A DNA stretch of 39,110 bases from positions 1-39,110 of IMG/VR virus record IMGVR_UViG_3300044533_000249. The stretch is one strand, 5' to 3'. Position 1 is the first letter of the stretch. Each line of letters starts with the position of its first letter. Source of the stretch: a virus. The notes beneath the pieces are model-generated. The model saw only the letters and a program-made list of their open reading frames with translations. It was not told where the DNA came from and did no database searches. A program made the translations under genes and the position numbers. Below are positions 20,440-32,745 of the stretch, in pieces.

Positions 20440-20619
20440 ATGACCGAACGTAAAGTTTGGAACGACGCAACACGTCTAACGCCCAAAGAACAACAGGTCT
20501 ATGATCTGTTCCGTAAGGGCTTTAAGTGTAAAGATATCGCTGTGATCTTGAGCATTACGCCAAGCGCAGCACGAACAAGACTAGCTCTAGCAAAGGATAA
20601 GGTGCGCTGTGGCGGATAG
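20440..20619 (+). CDS. 59-residue HTH protein (sigma region 4 / LuxR-like)
   Basis: MTERKVWNDATRLTPKEQQV starts a short protein whose core LTPKEQQVYDLFRKG ... CKDIAVILSITPSAARTRL is the helix-turn-helix pattern of sigma-70 region 4 and LuxR C-termini. GATAAGAAG precedes the ATG. It overlaps the next GTG start by 11 bp. Likely a small DNA-binding regulator; it is similar in layout to the protein at 27143-27355. Confidence 0.7.
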   Translation: MTERKVWNDATRLTPKEQQVYDLFRKGFKCKDIAVILSITPSAARTRLALAKDKVRCGG

Positions 20620-23150: not shown

Positions 23151-23875
23151 TTGCAGTTTGGTTTTCATGCGGAGCCGCCAGCGCAGTCGCGGCAAAACTG
23201 ACGTTAGAAAAATATTCTGACGTTCGCGTAATAAATAATCCTGTAGCGGAAGAGGACGACGACAATCGCCGGTTTCTGCGCGACGTTGAATCCTGGCTTG
23301 GCATTAAGATTGAAAGCGCTATCAACCCTAAATACCCTACCGCGTCTGCGTATGATGTATGGGCTTATCGTAATTATATGTCGGGCGTTAGCGGGGCAGT
23401 CTGCACGGTAGAACTAAAAAAGCGCGCGCGGCAGATATGGGAACAGACAAACAAAGCCGAATGGCATGTGCTTGGTTTTACCGTCGATGAAAAACATCGG
23501 TTTGATAGATTTGTTTTAACTGAGCGCGATAATGTTTTACCTGTTTTAATTGACGCAGGACTAACAAAGCAAGACTGTTTAGACCGCATTATAGCCGCTG
23601 GCATAAAGCCGCCACGCGTTTACGGTCTTGGCTTTCCAAACGCTAATTGCATTGGCTGCGTAAAAGCAACGTCACCTACCTACTGGAATCTTGTCCGACG
23701 CACGCACCCAGAGGCGTTTCAACAGCGCGCCGAACAATCGCGGGGGCTTGGGGTGAAGTTGGTAAGGTATAAAAACAAACGTATTTATCTTGATGAACTG
23801 CCAGCGGACGCAAAAGGAAGACCAATAGCTAAAATGCAAATTGACTGCGGTATATTTTGCGAGGAAAGAATATGA
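23147..23875 (+). CDS. PAPS reductase-like (adenine nucleotide alpha hydrolase) protein
   Basis: 242 residues. The N-terminal loop WFSCGAASAVAA (residues 5-16) is a variant of the SxGxxS ATP-binding loop of PAPS reductases and PP-loop enzymes. Seven cysteines are present (8, 86, 144, 168, 171, 234, 238), among them NCIGC and the final CGIFC, which could hold a metal or iron-sulfur centre as in DndC-like proteins. A sulfur or nucleotide transfer to nucleic acid is one idea; substrate unknown. It is tightly overlapped by polymerase and primase genes, so it belongs to replication-time expression. Confidence 0.75.
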   Translation: MIAVWFSCGAASAVAAKLTLEKYSDVRVINNPVAEEDDDNRRFLRDVESWLGIKIESAINPKYPTASAYDVWAYRNYMSGVSGAVCTVELKKRARQIWEQTNKAEWHVLGFTVDEKHRFDRFVLTERDNVLPVLIDAGLTKQDCLDRIIAAGIKPPRVYGLGFPNANCIGCVKATSPTYWNLVRRTHPEAFQQRAEQSRGLGVKLVRYKNKRIYLDELPADAKGRPIAKMQIDCGIFCEERI

Positions 23876-26235
23876 GCGCCGAATTTCTTAATAAGATTAT
23901 GAGTCTTGCCGAAGATGAATCGGAAACGATGCTCTTAATTAAGCAAATCGTGATCCGTGGCGAAGATGGCGAGATAGAATATTTCAACGACGGCGCGCCT
24001 AACTCTTCTTATCCTGCATGTTTACCGCAACGTGCAAAGATAAAAGATGGTGATTCTTGGTATATTAACACAGGCGTTTATATCAAAGATCGTTTTATTA
24101 AAGGCAAACCATCCGCAAGCAAACGCTGCATTGACTATGTTGCGTTTATGATGTTGGACGATATTGGTTCAACAAAAACTTACAACGGCAAACAATTTGT
24201 TGTTAAGACGCCGCCGATAAAGCCGTCGTGGATTATGGAAACGTCGGAAGGATCTTTTCAATACGGTTACATATTTAGCACACAACCAACGAAAGAAGAA
24301 TTTAACGCTGCGATCAAAGCTATTATCGCAGCGGAATATACTGACCCTGGCGCATCAAACGCGGTGCGTAACTGTCGCCTACCTGGCTCAGTTAATCTTA
24401 AAAAGGGACGCGGTAATTTTAAAGCGCGTCTTGTCGAATCTAATTTAGATCTTGAATACACGCTTGAAGAGATCTGCGTTGCGCTTGATGTAACGCCGGT
24501 TGACGTTGCAACGGGTGATCATGTTTCTATTCGCGTAAAAGACACAGGCACAGATGCAGTTTTCCAATGGTTAAACGCGAACGGCCACGCTCACGGCGAG
24601 CCTAACCATGATGGGTGGGCTCCCGTTATTTGTCCTAACGCAGAAGAACACAGCGACGGCAGCAACGTCGGCTATTATAACCCGTCAATGCGCGCGTTTA
24701 CGTGCTTTCACGGTCATTGCCGCGAGAAGATAGACAGCAAGTTCTTTTGTAATTGGGTTGCAGAACAAGGTGGCCCAAAGGCGATGCCAGGGCTGCGCGA
24801 AGATCTGATAAACGAGAACATGCAACGACTGGCAAAGGCGCTGCCGGAGAACACCGCGTTTAAAGACAGTGCAGACAAACGTATTGCGGATGTTAAACGC
24901 TTTCAAGCCGGACGTGTCAAACAGGAAAGTTGGTTCGAGCGTTTCCTCTATGTCATGGACGATGACTCTTACTTTGATAAAGAATCTTGCATTGAATACT
25001 CACGCGCCACGTTCAACGCAATCTTTCGCGGCGTTGCGTGTGTGTCCGTTAATGGGCTAAAGCCGCGCCGGATTGAGGCGTCGATATATTACGACGAGCA
25101 CCGCGAAACCAAGTGTGAATACACGTTGAAGGGTGTGACTTACGCAGCGGGAGAAAGCCTGTTGGTTCACAAAGACGGGCTTGTCTACGGCAACCGCTGG
25201 CGCGACGCGCGGCCCGACGTGAAGGGCAAAGGCGGCGATGTCACGCCTTGGCTTGAGCATTGCGAAAAGCTGATCCCTGACGAACAAGAGCGCAATCACG
25301 TCCTCGATGTGATGGCGTTTAAAGTCCAACATCCTAATATTAAAATTAATCACGCGATCTTGCACGGTGGCAAGGAGGGTCGCGGCAAAGATACGATGTG
25401 GGCTCCATTTATCTGGGCGGTGTGTGGCCCGAATGAAAAGAACTATGGCCTAATAAATAACGAAAGCCTGTCGTCTCAGTGGGGTTACGCGCTTGAGAGC
25501 GAGATCCTCGTCCTCAACGAGCTTAAAGAGCCCGACGCCGCGCAGCGTCGCGCCCTGGCTAACAAGCTGAAGCCGATCATCGCCGCCCCGCCTGACGTCA
25601 TTACGATCAACCGTAAGAATCTGCACCCTTACGACATGCTCAATCGACTTTTCGTCCTGGCGTTCTCTAATGACGAGATTCCGATTTCTCTTCCGACGCA
25701 GGATCGTCGCTGGTTTTGTATATGGTCTAGCTGCGAGCGGATGACCCCAGAGGCCGCGCAGGATATGTGGGGCTGGTATCACAGCGGCGGCTTCGAGGCT
25801 ATCGGGTCTTGGCTGCACACGCGTGATGTGTCGAAGTTCAACCCGTCCGCAACGCCTATGGAGACAGACTACAAGCGCACCATGATCGTCGGCGGTCTGT
25901 CCACGGCAGAGGCTTTCATCCTGCATCAGATCGAGATGCGCGCCGCGCCGTTCGAGTCGGGCGTTATCGCTGGCCCTTGGTATCGGCACTGTGAGATGCT
26001 TATGGGGCCAGGTATCGCACCATCCGGCCTCAAGATCCCACAGCCCGCGCTACTGCACGCGCTCGCGGAGGCTGGCTGGGTTGATATGGGGATGTGCGCG
26101 GCAGAGGAGCTGCCTACCAAGCGTCACATCTATGTGCGGCCTGACCGCCAACATGAGTCGAAATCAGATCTGAGACGGGCAATCGAACCAGTAAAGGTCG
26201 AAGGAAATGTATCGCCTTTTCGTAATACTAAGTAG
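23872..26235 (+). CDS. Primase-helicase (AEP/RepB-type primase + SF3-like helicase)
   Basis: 787 residues from the ATG at 23872, which has GAGGAAAG upstream and overlaps the previous stop. The N-terminal primase-like part has FMMLDDIGSTK (D96, D97) and DPGASNAVRNCRLPGSVNLK. A zinc-binding stretch follows (C254, H260, C278, H280/C283). The C-terminal ATPase has a modified P-loop HGGKEGRGKDT (498-508, K506), typical of DUF5906-type superfamily 3 helicases. It would open and prime the replication fork for the family A polymerase. Confidence 0.85.
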   Translation: MSAEFLNKIMSLAEDESETMLLIKQIVIRGEDGEIEYFNDGAPNSSYPACLPQRAKIKDGDSWYINTGVYIKDRFIKGKPSASKRCIDYVAFMMLDDIGSTKTYNGKQFVVKTPPIKPSWIMETSEGSFQYGYIFSTQPTKEEFNAAIKAIIAAEYTDPGASNAVRNCRLPGSVNLKKGRGNFKARLVESNLDLEYTLEEICVALDVTPVDVATGDHVSIRVKDTGTDAVFQWLNANGHAHGEPNHDGWAPVICPNAEEHSDGSNVGYYNPSMRAFTCFHGHCREKIDSKFFCNWVAEQGGPKAMPGLREDLINENMQRLAKALPENTAFKDSADKRIADVKRFQAGRVKQESWFERFLYVMDDDSYFDKESCIEYSRATFNAIFRGVACVSVNGLKPRRIEASIYYDEHRETKCEYTLKGVTYAAGESLLVHKDGLVYGNRWRDARPDVKGKGGDVTPWLEHCEKLIPDEQERNHVLDVMAFKVQHPNIKINHAILHGGKEGRGKDTMWAPFIWAVCGPNEKNYGLINNESLSSQWGYALESEILVLNELKEPDAAQRRALANKLKPIIAAPPDVITINRKNLHPYDMLNRLFVLAFSNDEIPISLPTQDRRWFCIWSSCERMTPEAAQDMWGWYHSGGFEAIGSWLHTRDVSKFNPSATPMETDYKRTMIVGGLSTAEAFILHQIEMRAAPFESGVIAGPWYRHCEMLMGPGIAPSGLKIPQPALLHALAEAGWVDMGMCAAEELPTKRHIYVRPDRQHESKSDLRRAIEPVKVEGNVSPFRNTK

Positions 26236-26689: not shown

Positions 26690-26986
26690 TCAACGAGCAC
26701 GATCATACTTAGCCCCTCTCAGTTTAGCTTCCCAACATTTGACGCCATAGATCACCGTAGAATGGTCGCGCTTGAATATACGCGCAAGTTTTAAATAGCT
26801 AGAGTGGGTTTCATATCTAGCGCGATACATGGCCTTGTGACGAGCTTGCACGATCTTTGATACTCGTTTGTAGCCCACAATGTCTGACGGGAATATCAAG
26901 AACTCATCAGCCACTTCGGCTATTATTTCACGCACGAACACGTCGCCTTCCCTTTCATTGCTTGTGTCCCACCACGGCGCTCTCAC
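26690..26986 (-). CDS. DnaA domain IV-only DNA-binding protein
   Basis: 98 residues. VSKIVQARHKAMYRARYETH ... SYLKLARIFKRDHSTVIYGV matches the C-terminal DNA-binding domain of DnaA, including the RDH(S/T)TV signature (residues 73-78). R49 aligns with E. coli R407, and H75, S76, T77 with the base-contacting H434, T435, T436. The AAA+ domain is absent, so it cannot act as a full initiator. It is in the leftward operon whose two promoters each carry a perfect DnaA box, so autoregulation or competition with host DnaA is plausible. Confidence 0.88.
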   Translation of the reverse strand: MRAPWWDTSNEREGDVFVREIIAEVADEFLIFPSDIVGYKRVSKIVQARHKAMYRARYETHSSYLKLARIFKRDHSTVIYGVKCWEAKLRGAKYDRAR

Positions 26987-27174
26987 TGTTTCATCTTTCT
27001 CGCAAATGAATCAAGATCGGCTTGCGTCCAGCCCGCAGCGGCTTGATGCTCTTCAATTTTCTTCATAACCCGCGCAAACTTCTCTTCCACGTCCGGCCCT
27101 TCCCCGCTGACCGTGACGGTCTTTGCAGGGTTGCCTTGGCTGTCAACCAAAACGAGCTTCATTGATTTCTTCAT
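26983..27174 (-). CDS. 63-residue conserved small protein
   Basis: MKKSMKLVLVDSQGNPAKTV starts a beta-strand opening followed by helices (DVEEKFARVMKKIEEHQAAA). ATG 27174 is used; an internal ATG at 27162 is possible. The stop overlaps the DnaA-like start (ATGA), so the two are co-translated. No family recognised. Confidence 0.6.
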   Translation of the reverse strand: MKKSMKLVLVDSQGNPAKTVTVSGEGPDVEEKFARVMKKIEEHQAAAGWTQADLDSFARKMKQ

Positions 27175-27355
27175 TTTGCAGTTCCACTTTTTCTCTTATG
27201 GCTTTCATGCGCGACGCTATGCTGCCAGGTAACTGATTCAGCGCTGCGCCGATCTGATGGTTGTCCAGCCCTTGTTGGCGCAAGTCCCATATGCGTTGCT
27301 CGTATGGCGTCAGCGCCGCAGGGTCTTTCATGTGTCTTTGTGGTTCTATCGTCAT
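27143..27355 (-). CDS. 70-residue HTH protein (sigma region 4-like)
   Basis: LTPYEQRIWDLRQQGLDNHQ ... IGAALNQLPGSIASRMKAI has the same HTH spacing as the protein at 20440-20619 and resembles sigma-70 region 4. The start is coupled by ATGA to the AlpA-like gene before it. Probably a small transcription regulator. Confidence 0.7.
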   Translation of the reverse strand: MTIEPQRHMKDPAALTPYEQRIWDLRQQGLDNHQIGAALNQLPGSIASRMKAIREKVELQNEEINEARFG

Positions 27356-29048: not shown

Positions 29049-29077
29049 GTTATACACATGTTTAAAAGTTATGTCAA
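29049..29077 (-). promoter_or_regulatory. Leftward sigma70 promoter P2 with DnaA box
   Basis: On the minus strand, TTGACA (29072-29077) and TATAAC (29049-29054) are separated by exactly 17 bases. A perfect DnaA box TTATACACA lies on the plus strand at 29050-29058, over the -10 and into the spacer. Its ACATGTGTATAACT core is identical to that of P1. Confidence 0.85.
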
Positions 29078-29266: not shown

Positions 29267-29295
29267 GTGCGTGTCCTTTACGTTTGATGTTGTGA

Positions 29296-29324
29296 GTTAT
29301 ACACATGTGCACAACTAGTGTCAA
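29296..29324 (-). promoter_or_regulatory. Leftward sigma70 promoter P1 with DnaA box
   Basis: On the minus strand, TTGACA (29319-29324) and TATAAC (29296-29301) have 17-base spacing. A perfect DnaA box TTATACACA lies at 29297-29305 on the plus strand, across the -10. The palindrome CACATGTG sits just upstream of the -10. Confidence 0.88.
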
Positions 29325-29365
29325 TAGTTATTTTACACAAAATAAGATATTTTTTTACGGTGTGG

Positions 29366-29428
29366 GCGGTGTTAAGTAGTAAAAATGCGGTGTTGGGTAG
29401 TGAAAATGCGGTGTTGGGTAGTGGTTTG
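29366..29428 (+). repeat. Three tandem 21-bp repeats
   Basis: Units at 29366-29386, 29387-29407 and 29408-29428 share GCGGTGTT(GG/AA)GTAGT; a partial fourth starts at 29429. The top strand is G/T-rich and the repeat lies in non-coding DNA. Confidence 0.85.
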
Positions 29429-29479
29429 GCGGTGGTTGGGTTGGGGCAACTGTCTGTTAATGAACCCGTTTGTCGAGTT

Positions 29480-29530
29480 GGGTATATATATGATTAAAAA
29501 TCAATTTAAAAATATTGTTATACTATTGTG
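29480..29530. other. AT-rich tract in the control region
   Basis: Runs such as TATATATATGATTAAAAATC and ATTTAAAAATATTGTTATAC make this the most AT-rich stretch of the intergenic region. It is flanked by the 21-bp repeats and their inverted copies, as expected for a DNA unwinding element. Confidence 0.5.
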
Positions 29531-29565
29531 CAGTGCAGCGCAAAACTTACCAGCAACTTTTTGGG

Positions 29566-29585
29566 CACTACCCAAACTACCCAAC
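29566..29585 (-). repeat. Two inverted copies of the 21-bp repeat core
   Basis: CACTACCCAA (29566-29575) and ACTACCCAAC (29576-29585) are the reverse complement of the TTGGGTAGT core of the direct repeats about 150 bp upstream, so the same site lies on both sides of the AT-rich tract. Confidence 0.7.
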
Positions 29586-29696
29586 TCGCCAAACTCATTA
29601 ACTTTTGGTAATGTTTGGTAAGGCGCGACACGGACGTTGAAAGCGATGTGAGGTGCGTTGAAAGCCAAAAACCAGGCTTCGCCCCCTCTCTTACGC

Positions 29697-29727
29697 AAAA
29701 ACGCAGCCAGGGATTCCCTCGCTGCGT
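29697..29727 (-). terminator. Leftward terminator inside the control region
   Basis: ACGCAGC/GCTGCGT (29701-29707 and 29721-29727) and the inner AGGGA/TCCCT form a hairpin with one C-C mismatch. On the minus strand it is followed by a T run (plus-strand A at 29697-29700). It would block leftward transcripts coming from the GTTTAC array. Confidence 0.7.
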
Positions 29728-29766
29728 CAATAAAGACGCAGTAACATAAAGCGTGCGCGCCGTCAA

Positions 29767-30240
29767 GTTTACGTAAACTAAGTTTACAATCACGACGCGC
29801 CCGCGCTGGCAGTCGCTCGCCTGGTAGCTACATGACGAGCGCGCGCAGTGCGCGCCGCCAAGCGATCTTTAGTTTACATTCAGTAAGCGCGCACCGCTTT
29901 GTTTACATAAACACGTTTACAGCAAACAAGCGCGCGCTCGCGTCAATAGAACAAAGCGCGCACATTAACTGTCACACATTTGTTTACATAAACACGTTTA
30001 CCGCAAACGATAGTTTACATTCAGTTATTATATACCGCGCGTTTACATAAACATGATTATTATAAACTCCCCGTTTACATAAACACGTTTACATAAACAA
30101 AGCTGCATGATTGTAAACTGTGCCATAATGATACAGTTTACATTCAACCCCGCCGTTTACATAAACATGTTTACGTAAACATTAAGTTTACATTTGTTTA
30201 CATTCAGCTCCGTGTTTACATAAACTTAGTTTACATTCAG
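29767..30240. repeat. Array of 18 GTTTAC sites (iteron/operator-like)
   Basis: Eighteen plus-strand GTTTAC hexamers occur in 474 bp. Nine are near-palindromes GTTTAC(A/G)TAAAC, at 29767, 29901, 29982, 30041, 30073, 30087, 30155, 30169 and 30214. Five are GTTTACATTCA(G/A), at 29872, 30013, 30136, 30196 and 30229. Two are GTTTAC(A/C)(G)CAAAC, at 29915 and 29996. Two are variants (29782, 30186), and one lone GTAAAC lies at 30113. Four pairs have an exact 14-bp start-to-start distance (29901/29915, 29982/29996, 30073/30087, 30155/30169), and the pairs recur every 81-91 bp. The 16-bp sequence at 30167-30182 is a perfect palindrome. Confidence 0.9.
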
Positions 30241-30321
30241 CTCGGCCAGGGGGCTCTGGGCCAGAGGGAAGGCGGGAATATCTATACAGGGACTGCACGA
30301 AATTTTTATTATTTTATCAGC

Positions 30322-30349
30322 TTGACGGCCCTCCCCTGGCGTGTAATAT
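30322..30349 (+). promoter_or_regulatory. Possible rightward promoter of the packaging operon
   Basis: TTGACG (30322-30327), a 16-base spacer and TAATAT (30344-30349). The match is fair (5/6 and 4/6). The expected start of transcription falls almost on the ATG at 30357. Confidence 0.5.
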
Positions 30350-30356
30350 TAAAAGC

Positions 30357-30803
30357 ATGATTACTCAAGCAGAACTCAAACAATCTTTGCGAATTGATCC
30401 AGACACAGGCGACATCCTTACTTTAAAAGGACGCCCCGCAGGTTCTATGACTTGGAATGGATACCGGCGTGTAACGATAAGAGGCCGCGAATATAAAGCG
30501 CATAGACTAATATGGTTATGGGTGCACGGCGAGCATCCGCCAAAGGATATGACAATAGATCATGTAAATGGGATCAAAACAGATAACAGAATTTGTAACT
30601 TGAGACTGGCAACACAAATGCAAAATACGGGGTTTTACTTTAGACCTACTGAAATGCGAAACATATATAAGGTTAAAGATCGCTACTGCGTAGAGATGCT
30701 GTATTATGGAAAACGTATTCGACGCGAAGCTAAGACCTTGGAAAGAGCTAAAGAAATACGCGCAGAGATATATGCTATTTACCCGCCATTGTGTAATCGT
30801 TAA
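30357..30803 (+). CDS. HNH endonuclease with AP2-like C-terminus
   Basis: 148 residues. The HNH core is HRLIWLWVHGEHPPKDMTID and HVNGIKTDNRICNLRLAT, with D68, H69, N71, N77 and N81. The C-terminal NIYKVKDRYCVEMLYYGKRI, RREAKTLERAKEIRAEIY resembles the AP2 DNA-binding fold of homing HNH enzymes. There is no ribosome site. It is the first gene of the rightward packaging block; it may be a free-standing homing enzyme, or, as near other terminases, assist DNA packaging. Confidence 0.85.
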   Translation: MITQAELKQSLRIDPDTGDILTLKGRPAGSMTWNGYRRVTIRGREYKAHRLIWLWVHGEHPPKDMTIDHVNGIKTDNRICNLRLATQMQNTGFYFRPTEMRNIYKVKDRYCVEMLYYGKRIRREAKTLERAKEIRAEIYAIYPPLCNR

Positions 30804-30824: not shown

Positions 30825-31352
30825 ATGACATTCCAGTCTCTGCCATACGAGCCTCGCAGCATAGAGGCGACGGAAAAGAATCTAGAGTTGATTTACGACG
30901 CCGCGCGCAAAGGCTTGAAAGGTGATGCTCTGGCCTATGCGGCTGGCATGACGCCGCAAGAGTATCGGCGCTTAATACAGCTCGACCCGATTGCGGAGTA
31001 TGCAGAGTATAAGGGCCGCGCAGAGGGCGAAGCAGAGATGGCCGCGGTTCTCCGCACAGCGGCGTTGGCGGGCGATAGCAAAGCCGCGCTTGAGATGCTG
31101 AAGCACGCACATGGCTGGGTAGCCAAACAGGCTGTCAGCGTAGAGGTTAACCAGACGATCAGCATCACGGCGGCGCTACAAGAAGCGCAACAGCGCGTGA
31201 TCGAAGGGCAGATCATAGATGCAGACGACTATATACAGCCCGGAGGAAGAACAGCGCTTGATGGCAACGTTGTGGAATCCAGCGCTGAAAAACGACCCGC
31301 TGGCCTTCGTCAGATTAGCCTTCCCGTGGAAGAAACCGAATACGCCACTTGA
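30825..31352 (+). CDS. terS: Terminase small subunit
   Basis: 175 residues directly before the large subunit. The N-terminal half has an HTH-type segment (LIYDAARKGLKGDALAYAAG, MTPQEYRRLIQLDP) that would bind the packaging start site. Then come helices for ring assembly (EAEMAAVLRTAALAGDSKAA, LEMLKHAHGWVAKQ) and an acidic tail. It overlaps the large-subunit gene by 134 bp if that gene starts at 31219. The family assignment rests on context and general pattern. Confidence 0.75.
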   Translation: MTFQSLPYEPRSIEATEKNLELIYDAARKGLKGDALAYAAGMTPQEYRRLIQLDPIAEYAEYKGRAEGEAEMAAVLRTAALAGDSKAALEMLKHAHGWVAKQAVSVEVNQTISITAALQEAQQRVIEGQIIDADDYIQPGGRTALDGNVVESSAEKRPAGLRQISLPVEETEYAT

Positions 31353-32745
31353 GCACTTCGAGGGGCCGCGTAAATGGCAACGGGAAATTCTGACAGAATT
31401 ACGCGAGCACATCAAAGCTAACAACGGCAAGATAGACTTTGAAACGCTGCGTATGGCAGTCAGTTCAGGTCGCGGTATCGGTAAGTCTGCCCTCGTTAGC
31501 TGGCTGACGATCTGGATGCTGACCACACGGATCGGCTCAACGACCATCGTATCGGCTAACTCAGAGGCGCAGCTCCGTAGCGTCACCTGGGCTGAGATCA
31601 CCAAGTGGCTAAGTATGTCGATACACAGTCACTGGTTCGAGGTATCCGCAACGCGAGTGCTACCGGCGAAGTGGATAGCGGAGCTGGTCGAACGAGATCT
31701 GAAAATGGGAACGCGCTATTGGGGCGTAGAAGGGCGGTTGTGGAGTGCAGAGAATCCTGACGCATATGCGGGCGTGCATAACTTCGCGGGTGTCATGCTG
31801 GTGTTCGATGAGGCGAGCGGAATTGATGATAGTATCTGGTCAGTTGCAGCGGGCTTTTTTACGGAAAATACCCCTAATCGCTTTTGGTTGTGCTTCAGCA
31901 ACCCCCGTCGTAACTCTGGTTACTTTTATGAGTGTTTTAACTCCAAGCGAGACTTTTGGCGAAATAAAATTGTCGATGCCCGCTCCGTCGAAGGCACGGA
32001 TAAAGCCGTCTATCAACAGATCATTGACGAGTATGGCCCCGACTCAAGCGCCGCGCACGTCGAGGTCTACGGTCAGTTCCCCAACGCGAGCGACGACCAG
32101 TTCATCGGAAACGCGCTGGTTGACGAGGCAATGGAACGTCCCGCTATATCCGACCAGTCCGCGCCCATCGTGGTCGGAGTGGATCCAGCACGCTTTGGTG
32201 CCGACGCTACCGTAATAGCGATACGGCAGGGGCGCGACATACTGAGCATCCGACGACATCGAGGCGACGACACGATGGAAGTTGTTGGACGAGTGATAGA
32301 TACAATAGAGGAGTATAAGCCCGCCCTCGTTGTGATAGATGAAGGGGGTTTGGGCGCAGGTGTCGTGGATCGGTTGAAGGAACAGCGCTACAAGGTGCGC
32401 GGAGTAAATTTTGGAAACAAATCAAGTCGGCCAGGAATGTATGGCAACAAGCGCGCGGAGATGTGGGGCGCGATGAAAGACTGGCTGAAGGACGCAAGCA
32501 TACCGAAGGATCGGTATCTGAAATCAGACCTGATCGGGCCAATGATGAAGCCGGACTCGAAGGGAACGATCTTCTTGGAGTCTAAGAAGGACATGAAGTC
32601 GAGAGGACTGGCGTCACCTGACGCAGCGGACGCTATCGCAGTAACCTTCGCCTTTCCTGTCGCTAGACGCGAGCAACGAGTAGACAACCCGCGCCGCGTA
32701 ACGTATGCTGGCGGCGGTAATTCCTCTGGTTGGATGGCGCATTAA
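31219..32745 (+). CDS. terL: Terminase large subunit
   Basis: 508 residues. ATPase: Walker A SGRGIGKS (83-90) and Walker B VMLVFDE (192-198, D197 E198). RNase H-like nuclease: GVDPARFGAD (D322), LVVIDEGG (D374) and SPDAADAIAV (D471), which fits the usual acidic triad. The start at 31219 has AAGGG upstream; a second ATG at 31261 would also keep the conserved part. It pumps DNA into the prohead through the portal and cuts the concatemer. Confidence 0.93.
   Translation: MQTTIYSPEEEQRLMATLWNPALKNDPLAFVRLAFPWKKPNTPLEHFEGPRKWQREILTELREHIKANNGKIDFETLRMAVSSGRGIGKSALVSWLTIWMLTTRIGSTTIVSANSEAQLRSVTWAEITKWLSMSIHSHWFEVSATRVLPAKWIAELVERDLKMGTRYWGVEGRLWSAENPDAYAGVHNFAGVMLVFDEASGIDDSIWSVAAGFFTENTPNRFWLCFSNPRRNSGYFYECFNSKRDFWRNKIVDARSVEGTDKAVYQQIIDEYGPDSSAAHVEVYGQFPNASDDQFIGNALVDEAMERPAISDQSAPIVVGVDPARFGADATVIAIRQGRDILSIRRHRGDDTMEVVGRVIDTIEEYKPALVVIDEGGLGAGVVDRLKEQRYKVRGVNFGNKSSRPGMYGNKRAEMWGAMKDWLKDASIPKDRYLKSDLIGPMMKPDSKGTIFLESKKDMKSRGLASPDAADAIAVTFAFPVARREQRVDNPRRVTYAGGGNSSGWMAH

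Follow-up and report, generated by a model that had tools for sequence, protein, structure and literature searches.

A packed array of GTTTAC sites between an origin-like element and the terminase genes of a phage

The P1 c1 operators and the L5 stoperators are phage multi-operator arrays, in which many copies of a short site are read by an HTH protein. The origins of SaPI and P4 have an AT-rich core flanked by iterons and are read by an initiator of the AEP-primase/SF3-helicase type (for example, PriRep1 or alpha), and the pac sites of SPP1 and P1 contain repeats bound by TerS. The window described here, the whole stretch of 39,110 bp that was analysed, is a phage of ~39 kb with relatives of the P22-like portal and coat proteins, PolA, a primase-helicase and terS-terL. 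Its hosts are freshwater bacteria, and its closest named relative is MW202483.1 (locus L008), a circular GenBank genome from Manatee Spring. A non-coding gap of 1.09 kb (29267-30356), with leftward early genes on one side and a rightward HNH-terS-terL operon on the other, holds a dense array of GTTTAC sites.

This array is similar to the c1 operators and stoperators in having many copies of a short, partly palindromic site, for which the candidate reader is likewise a small HTH protein. Unlike in those systems, the copies crowd into a single 0.47-kb locus next to an origin-like element, and relatives differ in their number (2 to 21). A multi-site operator platform is a known kind of element; the packed, copy-variable form beside a probable origin that swaps its iterons appears to be a new variation on it. 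Among the papers found in searches on phage repeats, iteron and SaPI origins, pac sites, NrS-1, phage DnaA domain IV and DSL-LC05, none describes such an array in its title or abstract. Like the SPP1 and P1 pac sites, the locus combines repeated sites with a T-tract next to terS, but the TerS of this family does not track the sites. The SaPI and P4 origins resemble not the array but the adjoining element at 29372-29585, which has inverted iterons, an AT-rich core and a probable initiator of similar model fold; the iteron sequences differ, and its role in replication is a predicted one. We know of no counterpart of the GTTTAC array at SaPI or P4 origins. The features of the window discussed below are as follows.

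20440..20619, + strand: sigma-region-4/GerE-like HTH protein of 59 aa, the best-supported candidate binder
23857..26235, + strand: primase-helicase (DUF5906; NrS-1/PriRep1-like) whose model has a winged helix at the C-terminus, probable origin initiator
26690..26986, - strand: stand-alone DnaA domain IV protein (Bac_DnaA_C) of 98 aa
27143..27355, - strand: second GerE-like HTH
29049..29077, - strand: second predicted leftward promoter (TTGACA-17 bp-TATAAC)
29296..29324, - strand: predicted leftward early promoter (TTGACA at 29324-29319, 17-bp spacer, TATAAC at 29301-29296)
29372..29484, + strand: left iterons (TTAAGTAGT at 29372; TTGGGTAGT at 29393 and 29414; TTGGGTA at 29478)
29468..29527, no strand: AT-rich core of the origin-like element (80% AT in 60 bp)
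29561..29584, - strand: right iterons, inverted (TACCCAA at 29569 and 29578), with a direct TTGGGCA at 29561
29767..30234, + strand: GTTTAC array
30214..30240, + strand: terS-proximal GT sites (GTTTACATAAAC and GTTTACATTCAG), the array portion for which counterparts exist throughout the clade
30249..30318, + strand: G-rich block (GGGGG..GGGCC..AGGGA.TGCAC) with a T-tract after it, conserved family-wide upstream of terS
30357..30803, + strand: HNH (HNH_3, homing-type) endonuclease gene, between the array with its G-rich block and terS
30825..31352, + strand: terS, small terminase subunit, which precedes terL and is assigned from the product name of a homologue in OR003940.1 and the family alignment
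31219..32745, + strand: terL, large terminase subunit

Composition of the GTTTAC array

The array contains the 18 forward GTTTAC hexamers that the earlier note had counted in 474 bp, at the same coordinates, and three reverse-strand sites (29773, 30113 and 30175) that were missing from its count. Dinucleotide shuffling of the array (2000 rounds) gave 0.9 hexamers on average and never more than 5, compared with the 21 observed, and the rest of the 39,110-bp window holds 17. Three right halves had been proposed for the forward sites; these describe nine (RTAAAC, forming GTTTAC[A/G]TAAAC palindromes), four (ATTCAG) and two sites (NGCAAAC), while three of the 18 fit none of them (29782, AATCAC; 30136, ATTCAA; 30186, ATTTGT). 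The palindrome GTTTACATAAAC occurs seven times in the window, always inside the array, compared with no occurrence of a reversed-pattern control. Eighteen of the 21 hexamers point forward, as in the direct repeats of an iteron origin; the array is 59% AT overall with GC-rich spacers, a composition unlike that of an AT-rich unwinding region. Its sites are not DnaA boxes, as had been proposed, and 29767-30240 contains no TTATNCACA.

Four pairs of sites are spaced by 14 bp (29901/29915, 29982/29996, 30073/30087 and 30155/30169) and recur after 81, 91 and 82 bp, in agreement with the 81-91 bp given previously. The claim that this arrangement is too regular for chance stands for the density of sites, but the pair register is weaker evidence than was stated, since randomly placed sites gave four or more pairs sharing a spacing between 6 and 39 bp in 9% of 20,000 trials. 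Because the 14-bp pairs sit inside 36-nt direct repeats and the arrays of relatives have lost whole units with ends at repeats, the register is for the most part a product of duplication. Searches at the array returned no Rfam match for an RNA element, and its surroundings contain no intrinsic terminator (1.9 expected) and four promoters (4.1 expected).

The array and its sites in related phages

From IMG/VR, 30 DnaA-type and 80 TerL loci of relatives were collected, including some fragmentary contigs in which absences carry little weight. The array is kept in all seven of the loci L008-L014, whose DnaA-type protein is 92-98% identical to that of the window, so the multi-site platform foreseen in the earlier note is indeed present at the corresponding position in close relatives. 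L008-L014 and L034 have arrays of 14-21 GTTTAC within 500 bp, and an exact search with a 20-bp pattern returned 12 stretches, among them L121, L124, L125, L127 and L128. When the arrays of eight close relatives are aligned, they are seen to differ by deletions of whole blocks at repeats. Sites were more conserved than spacers in all six pairwise comparisons (for example, 94% versus 83% with L128 and 92% versus 85% with L034), with single p-values of 0.008-0.34.

Beyond these close relatives, GT[ATG][TGA]ACAT sites are concentrated between 90 and 270 bp upstream of terS across the terS-terL family. In 85 upstream regions, a set thinned by 12-mer sharing, 141 such sites were found in 15,300 bp at -270 to -90 versus 26 in 64,078 bp further upstream; for the window (W), L008 and L036 this zone was measured from the HNH gene instead of terS. 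The counterparts of the terS-proximal sites at 30214..30240, which in the window lie upstream of the HNH gene, hold this distance in the site-bearing relatives, as expected for an operator acting on the predicted terS promoter. Site counts are bimodal: among 37 phages with known DnaA_C status (L025, with too little upstream sequence, was left out), 19 have at least two sites, 18 have none and no phage has one. Amplified sites were observed only in the clade of the window and in a handful of phages, L034 and L128 among them, and relatives outside the amplified branch have two to six copies. The far relative L049 has other half-sites, which are also spaced by 14 and 14 bp. The enrichment in the clade-wide zone and the bimodal counts indicate that the array is an amplified version of a site shared by the clade, and with ~20 copies in the window against two to six elsewhere the site looks to have multiplied in one branch of the family. 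We are confident that this is a real, conserved and amplified multi-site element.

In L066, L068 and L072, the corresponding stretch upstream of terS is occupied by unrelated tandem repeats (six units of GCTCGACG, nine of GCCCCCTG and 14 of CCTGCCCT, respectively), and this gap therefore seems generally prone to repeat growth.

Origin-like element and leftward promoters

The array had been suggested to represent iterons of a replication origin. This is probably not so: TTGGGTA iterons arranged like those of an origin adjoin it at 29372-29585 and are a constant feature of the family, whereas GTTTAC is missing in half of it. Nor do the GTTTAC-type sites covary with an initiator, being absent from 18 of the 37 related phages despite a primase-helicase that was found family-wide wherever a contig spans its locus. 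In the window, the iterons of the adjoining element are inverted around the AT-rich core, in the manner of SaPI and P4 origins. Using a repeat chosen blind to orientation, we found the iterons inverted at 45 of 77 loci and direct at eight, with 13 ties and 11 loci without a shared 7-mer. The relatives keep this build with drifting iterons, which include TTGGTAG, TTAGGG, ATAGTCAT, TTGGTCAT, TTGGGTCA and others. The element at 29372-29585 is thus a probable replication origin, as judged from its layout. GC skew was rejected as an origin marker, as it is modest and tracks gene direction.

The primase-helicase resembles NrS-1 by sequence, and both the NrS-1 CTR and PriRep1 by fold (model pLDDT 78). 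Its predicted structure ends with the helix-strand order of a winged helix, as would suit a winged-helix initiator, and on the basis of this model it is probably the protein that initiates at the origin. Among W, L008 and L034, which have alike iterons, the C-terminal half is 78-98% identical when compared in 60-aa stretches, whereas the N-terminal half is 36-86% identical. Iteron sequence and the C-terminal half swap together between relatives, a natural set for studying origin-initiator co-evolution.

Two DnaA boxes of the TTATNCACA type are located near the array, at 29050 and 29297. Both are perfect boxes, read TTATACACA (29050-29058 and 29297-29305) and overlap the -10 element of a predicted leftward promoter. 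Identical or near-match boxes were observed at the corresponding spot of the leftward promoters of relatives. In the DnaA domain IV protein of the phage, Pfam shows only domain IV and no AAA+ DnaA domain. Its recognition motif, RDH[ST]T, is shared with chromosomal DnaA and predicts TTATNCACA as the recognised site, and the probable targets of this protein are the TTATACACA boxes in the leftward promoters. The locus is similar to bacterial oriC in the presence of these boxes and of a domain IV protein, but it differs in that the array sites are not DnaA boxes and the phage protein of 98 aa lacks the AAA+ domain.

Candidate binders and readings of the array

Of the binders named in the earlier note, the GerE-like HTH protein encoded at 20440 fits best, as suggested by its co-occurrence with the sites. 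A GerE match was detected in 16 of 21 site-bearing records compared with one of 16 site-free records, and the five site-bearing records without a match are contigs only 6.6-27 kb long. Of the near-complete records (at least 34 kb), all eight with sites have this HTH and none of the seven without sites has it. The matches are weak (E ~1e-5 per genome), and only one passes the Pfam cut-off. At the same loci, ORF 20440 has a median identity of 93% (n = 35) versus 60% for PolA (n = 24) and 56% for the neighbouring ORF 19738 (n = 35). Three changes on the TerL tree suffice to account for the site-bearing label (with L054 labelled site-bearing by hand, its site count being zero), and descent alone could therefore give the pattern of co-occurrence. 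L042 has five sites and no 20440, and since the sole such HTH found there is similar to that at 27143, the binder in this phage would have to be the latter. As a common binder, however, the HTH at 27143 does not hold up, because it is missing in five of eight array carriers (L008, L009, L011, L012 and L013). The same applies to the AlpA-like protein at 27352, detected in one of the eight other array carriers (L010), and to ORF 20917, which was found in no array relative spanning it (43% in L038). HTH_17 proteins in general were rejected as binders, with matches in only two of 38 records. The partition-like site proposed as an alternative found no support in the form of ParA or ParB among 20 proteins scanned with Pfam. 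A host regulon was also rejected: in five MAGs holding relatives, GTTTACATAAAC occurs 0-1 times per genome, like the reversed control, which makes a phage protein the likelier binder.

In L058 and L056, a GerE/LuxR-like HTH is fused to DnaA domain IV (L186:963-1655 for L058; around 65-410 in L056), and the fusion gene of L058 directly follows the homologue of 19738, the position of 20440 in the window. That the domain IV protein (26690-26986) itself binds the array is very unlikely, even though it was found in all 19 site-bearing phages (18 strong matches and one weak) and all 12 phages without it have no GT sites. Six phages have the protein (three strong and three weak matches) but no sites, the TTATNCACA boxes are located in the leftward promoters and not in the array, and L049 has four sites despite the loss of the domain IV motif (RTHAA).

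We tentatively favour a reading of the array as a multi-site operator or enhancer, amplified at the boundary between the origin and the late genes, with a GerE-like binder; judged from sequence features, this reading falls somewhat short of an even chance. Against it stands a role in replication, in which the sites would be accessory to the TTGGGTA core as an enhancer, a copy-control element or, in the manner of P4 crr, a second cluster of iterons. The array adjoins the origin-like element, all aligned phages with the window-type C-terminal half of the primase-helicase (W, L008 and L034) have an amplified array, and several relatives have a second iteron cluster right before the GT sites, where the window has GTTTAC copies. 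We nevertheless consider an accessory role unlikely, if still worth weighing, because the GT sites hold their position near terS and not near the iteron core, are absent in half of a family that retains the primase-helicase, and are independent of the iterons in sequence, with GTTTACATAAAC found alongside TTGGGTA, TTAGGG and ATAGTCAT alike.

The array could also form a pac region together with the G-rich block and T-tract, its repeated sites being bound by TerS rings. It adjoins terS, the block that follows the sites is conserved in 77 aligned sequences, and each of five near-complete records (including the window) opens at a different position with respect to terS, which, together with the circular relative, suggests headful packaging. 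The conserved part, however, is the G-rich block and not the GT sites. The N-terminal region of TerS, a protein (30825..31352) with no convincing Pfam match, is nearly alike in phages with sites (L057 and L063) and without them (L047, L053, L060 and L065); TerS therefore does not track the sites and was rejected as their binder by covariation, and a pac role for the array itself appears improbable. The block at 30249..30318 is a candidate pac and/or late-promoter element, and the record openings suggest headful packaging with a pac site near it. Neutral repeat expansion by unequal recombination, with a function only in the ancestral one or two sites, would account for the evident duplications and whole-unit deletions in array relatives and for the other repeats in this stretch elsewhere (for example, those of L072). 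It is hardly credible given the excess conservation of sites over spacers in every comparison and the shared orientation of most of the array (18 of 21 sites).

In the branch of the window, GTTTAC[A/G]TAAAC, GTTTACATTCAG and their kin were copied leftwards by segmental duplication to ~20. Under the operator reading, this is the lineage-specific amplification of an operator-type site that the clade would have kept between the origin and the late (terminase-structural) operon. The palindromic sites would be bound by a small dimeric HTH of the GerE/sigma-region-4 type (ORF 20440), or alternatively by the 27143 protein in some relatives and the HTH-DnaA domain IV fusion in two. Many copies would make occupancy steep and titratable, and the filled platform, as an activator or a repressor, might switch the region between early use (replication from the neighbouring origin and leftward early promoters) and late use (terS transcription and packaging). 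That the GerE-like HTH and the domain IV protein, separate in the window and fused in L056 and L058, act as one regulator and form a new phage switch is a long shot. If so, the DnaA domain would occupy the DnaA boxes of the leftward early promoters on one side of the origin and the HTH the GTTTAC platform at terS on the other; one protein pair would then set replication, early shut-off and late start, and site copy number would tune its threshold. In this uncultured phage family, a putative regulatory site has grown from about two to about 20 copies beside a probable origin whose iterons keep changing. Testable pairs can be named: HTH 20440 with GTTTAC, DnaA domain IV with TTATACACA, and the primase-helicase tail with TTGGGTA.

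The HNH gene at 30357-30803, undetected in several array carriers, has its own promoter-like sequence (TTGACG-16-TAATAT) that ends seven bases before the ATG, and its transcript is possibly leaderless. A junction repeat, CTGTKGATTTRTTAC in the sense of the window + strand, gave no hit in the window itself to the exact patterns used; in relatives, it precedes successive leftward early genes in up to four copies (L035 4838-5298, L038 4624-5296 and others) and may help gene cassettes to shuffle.
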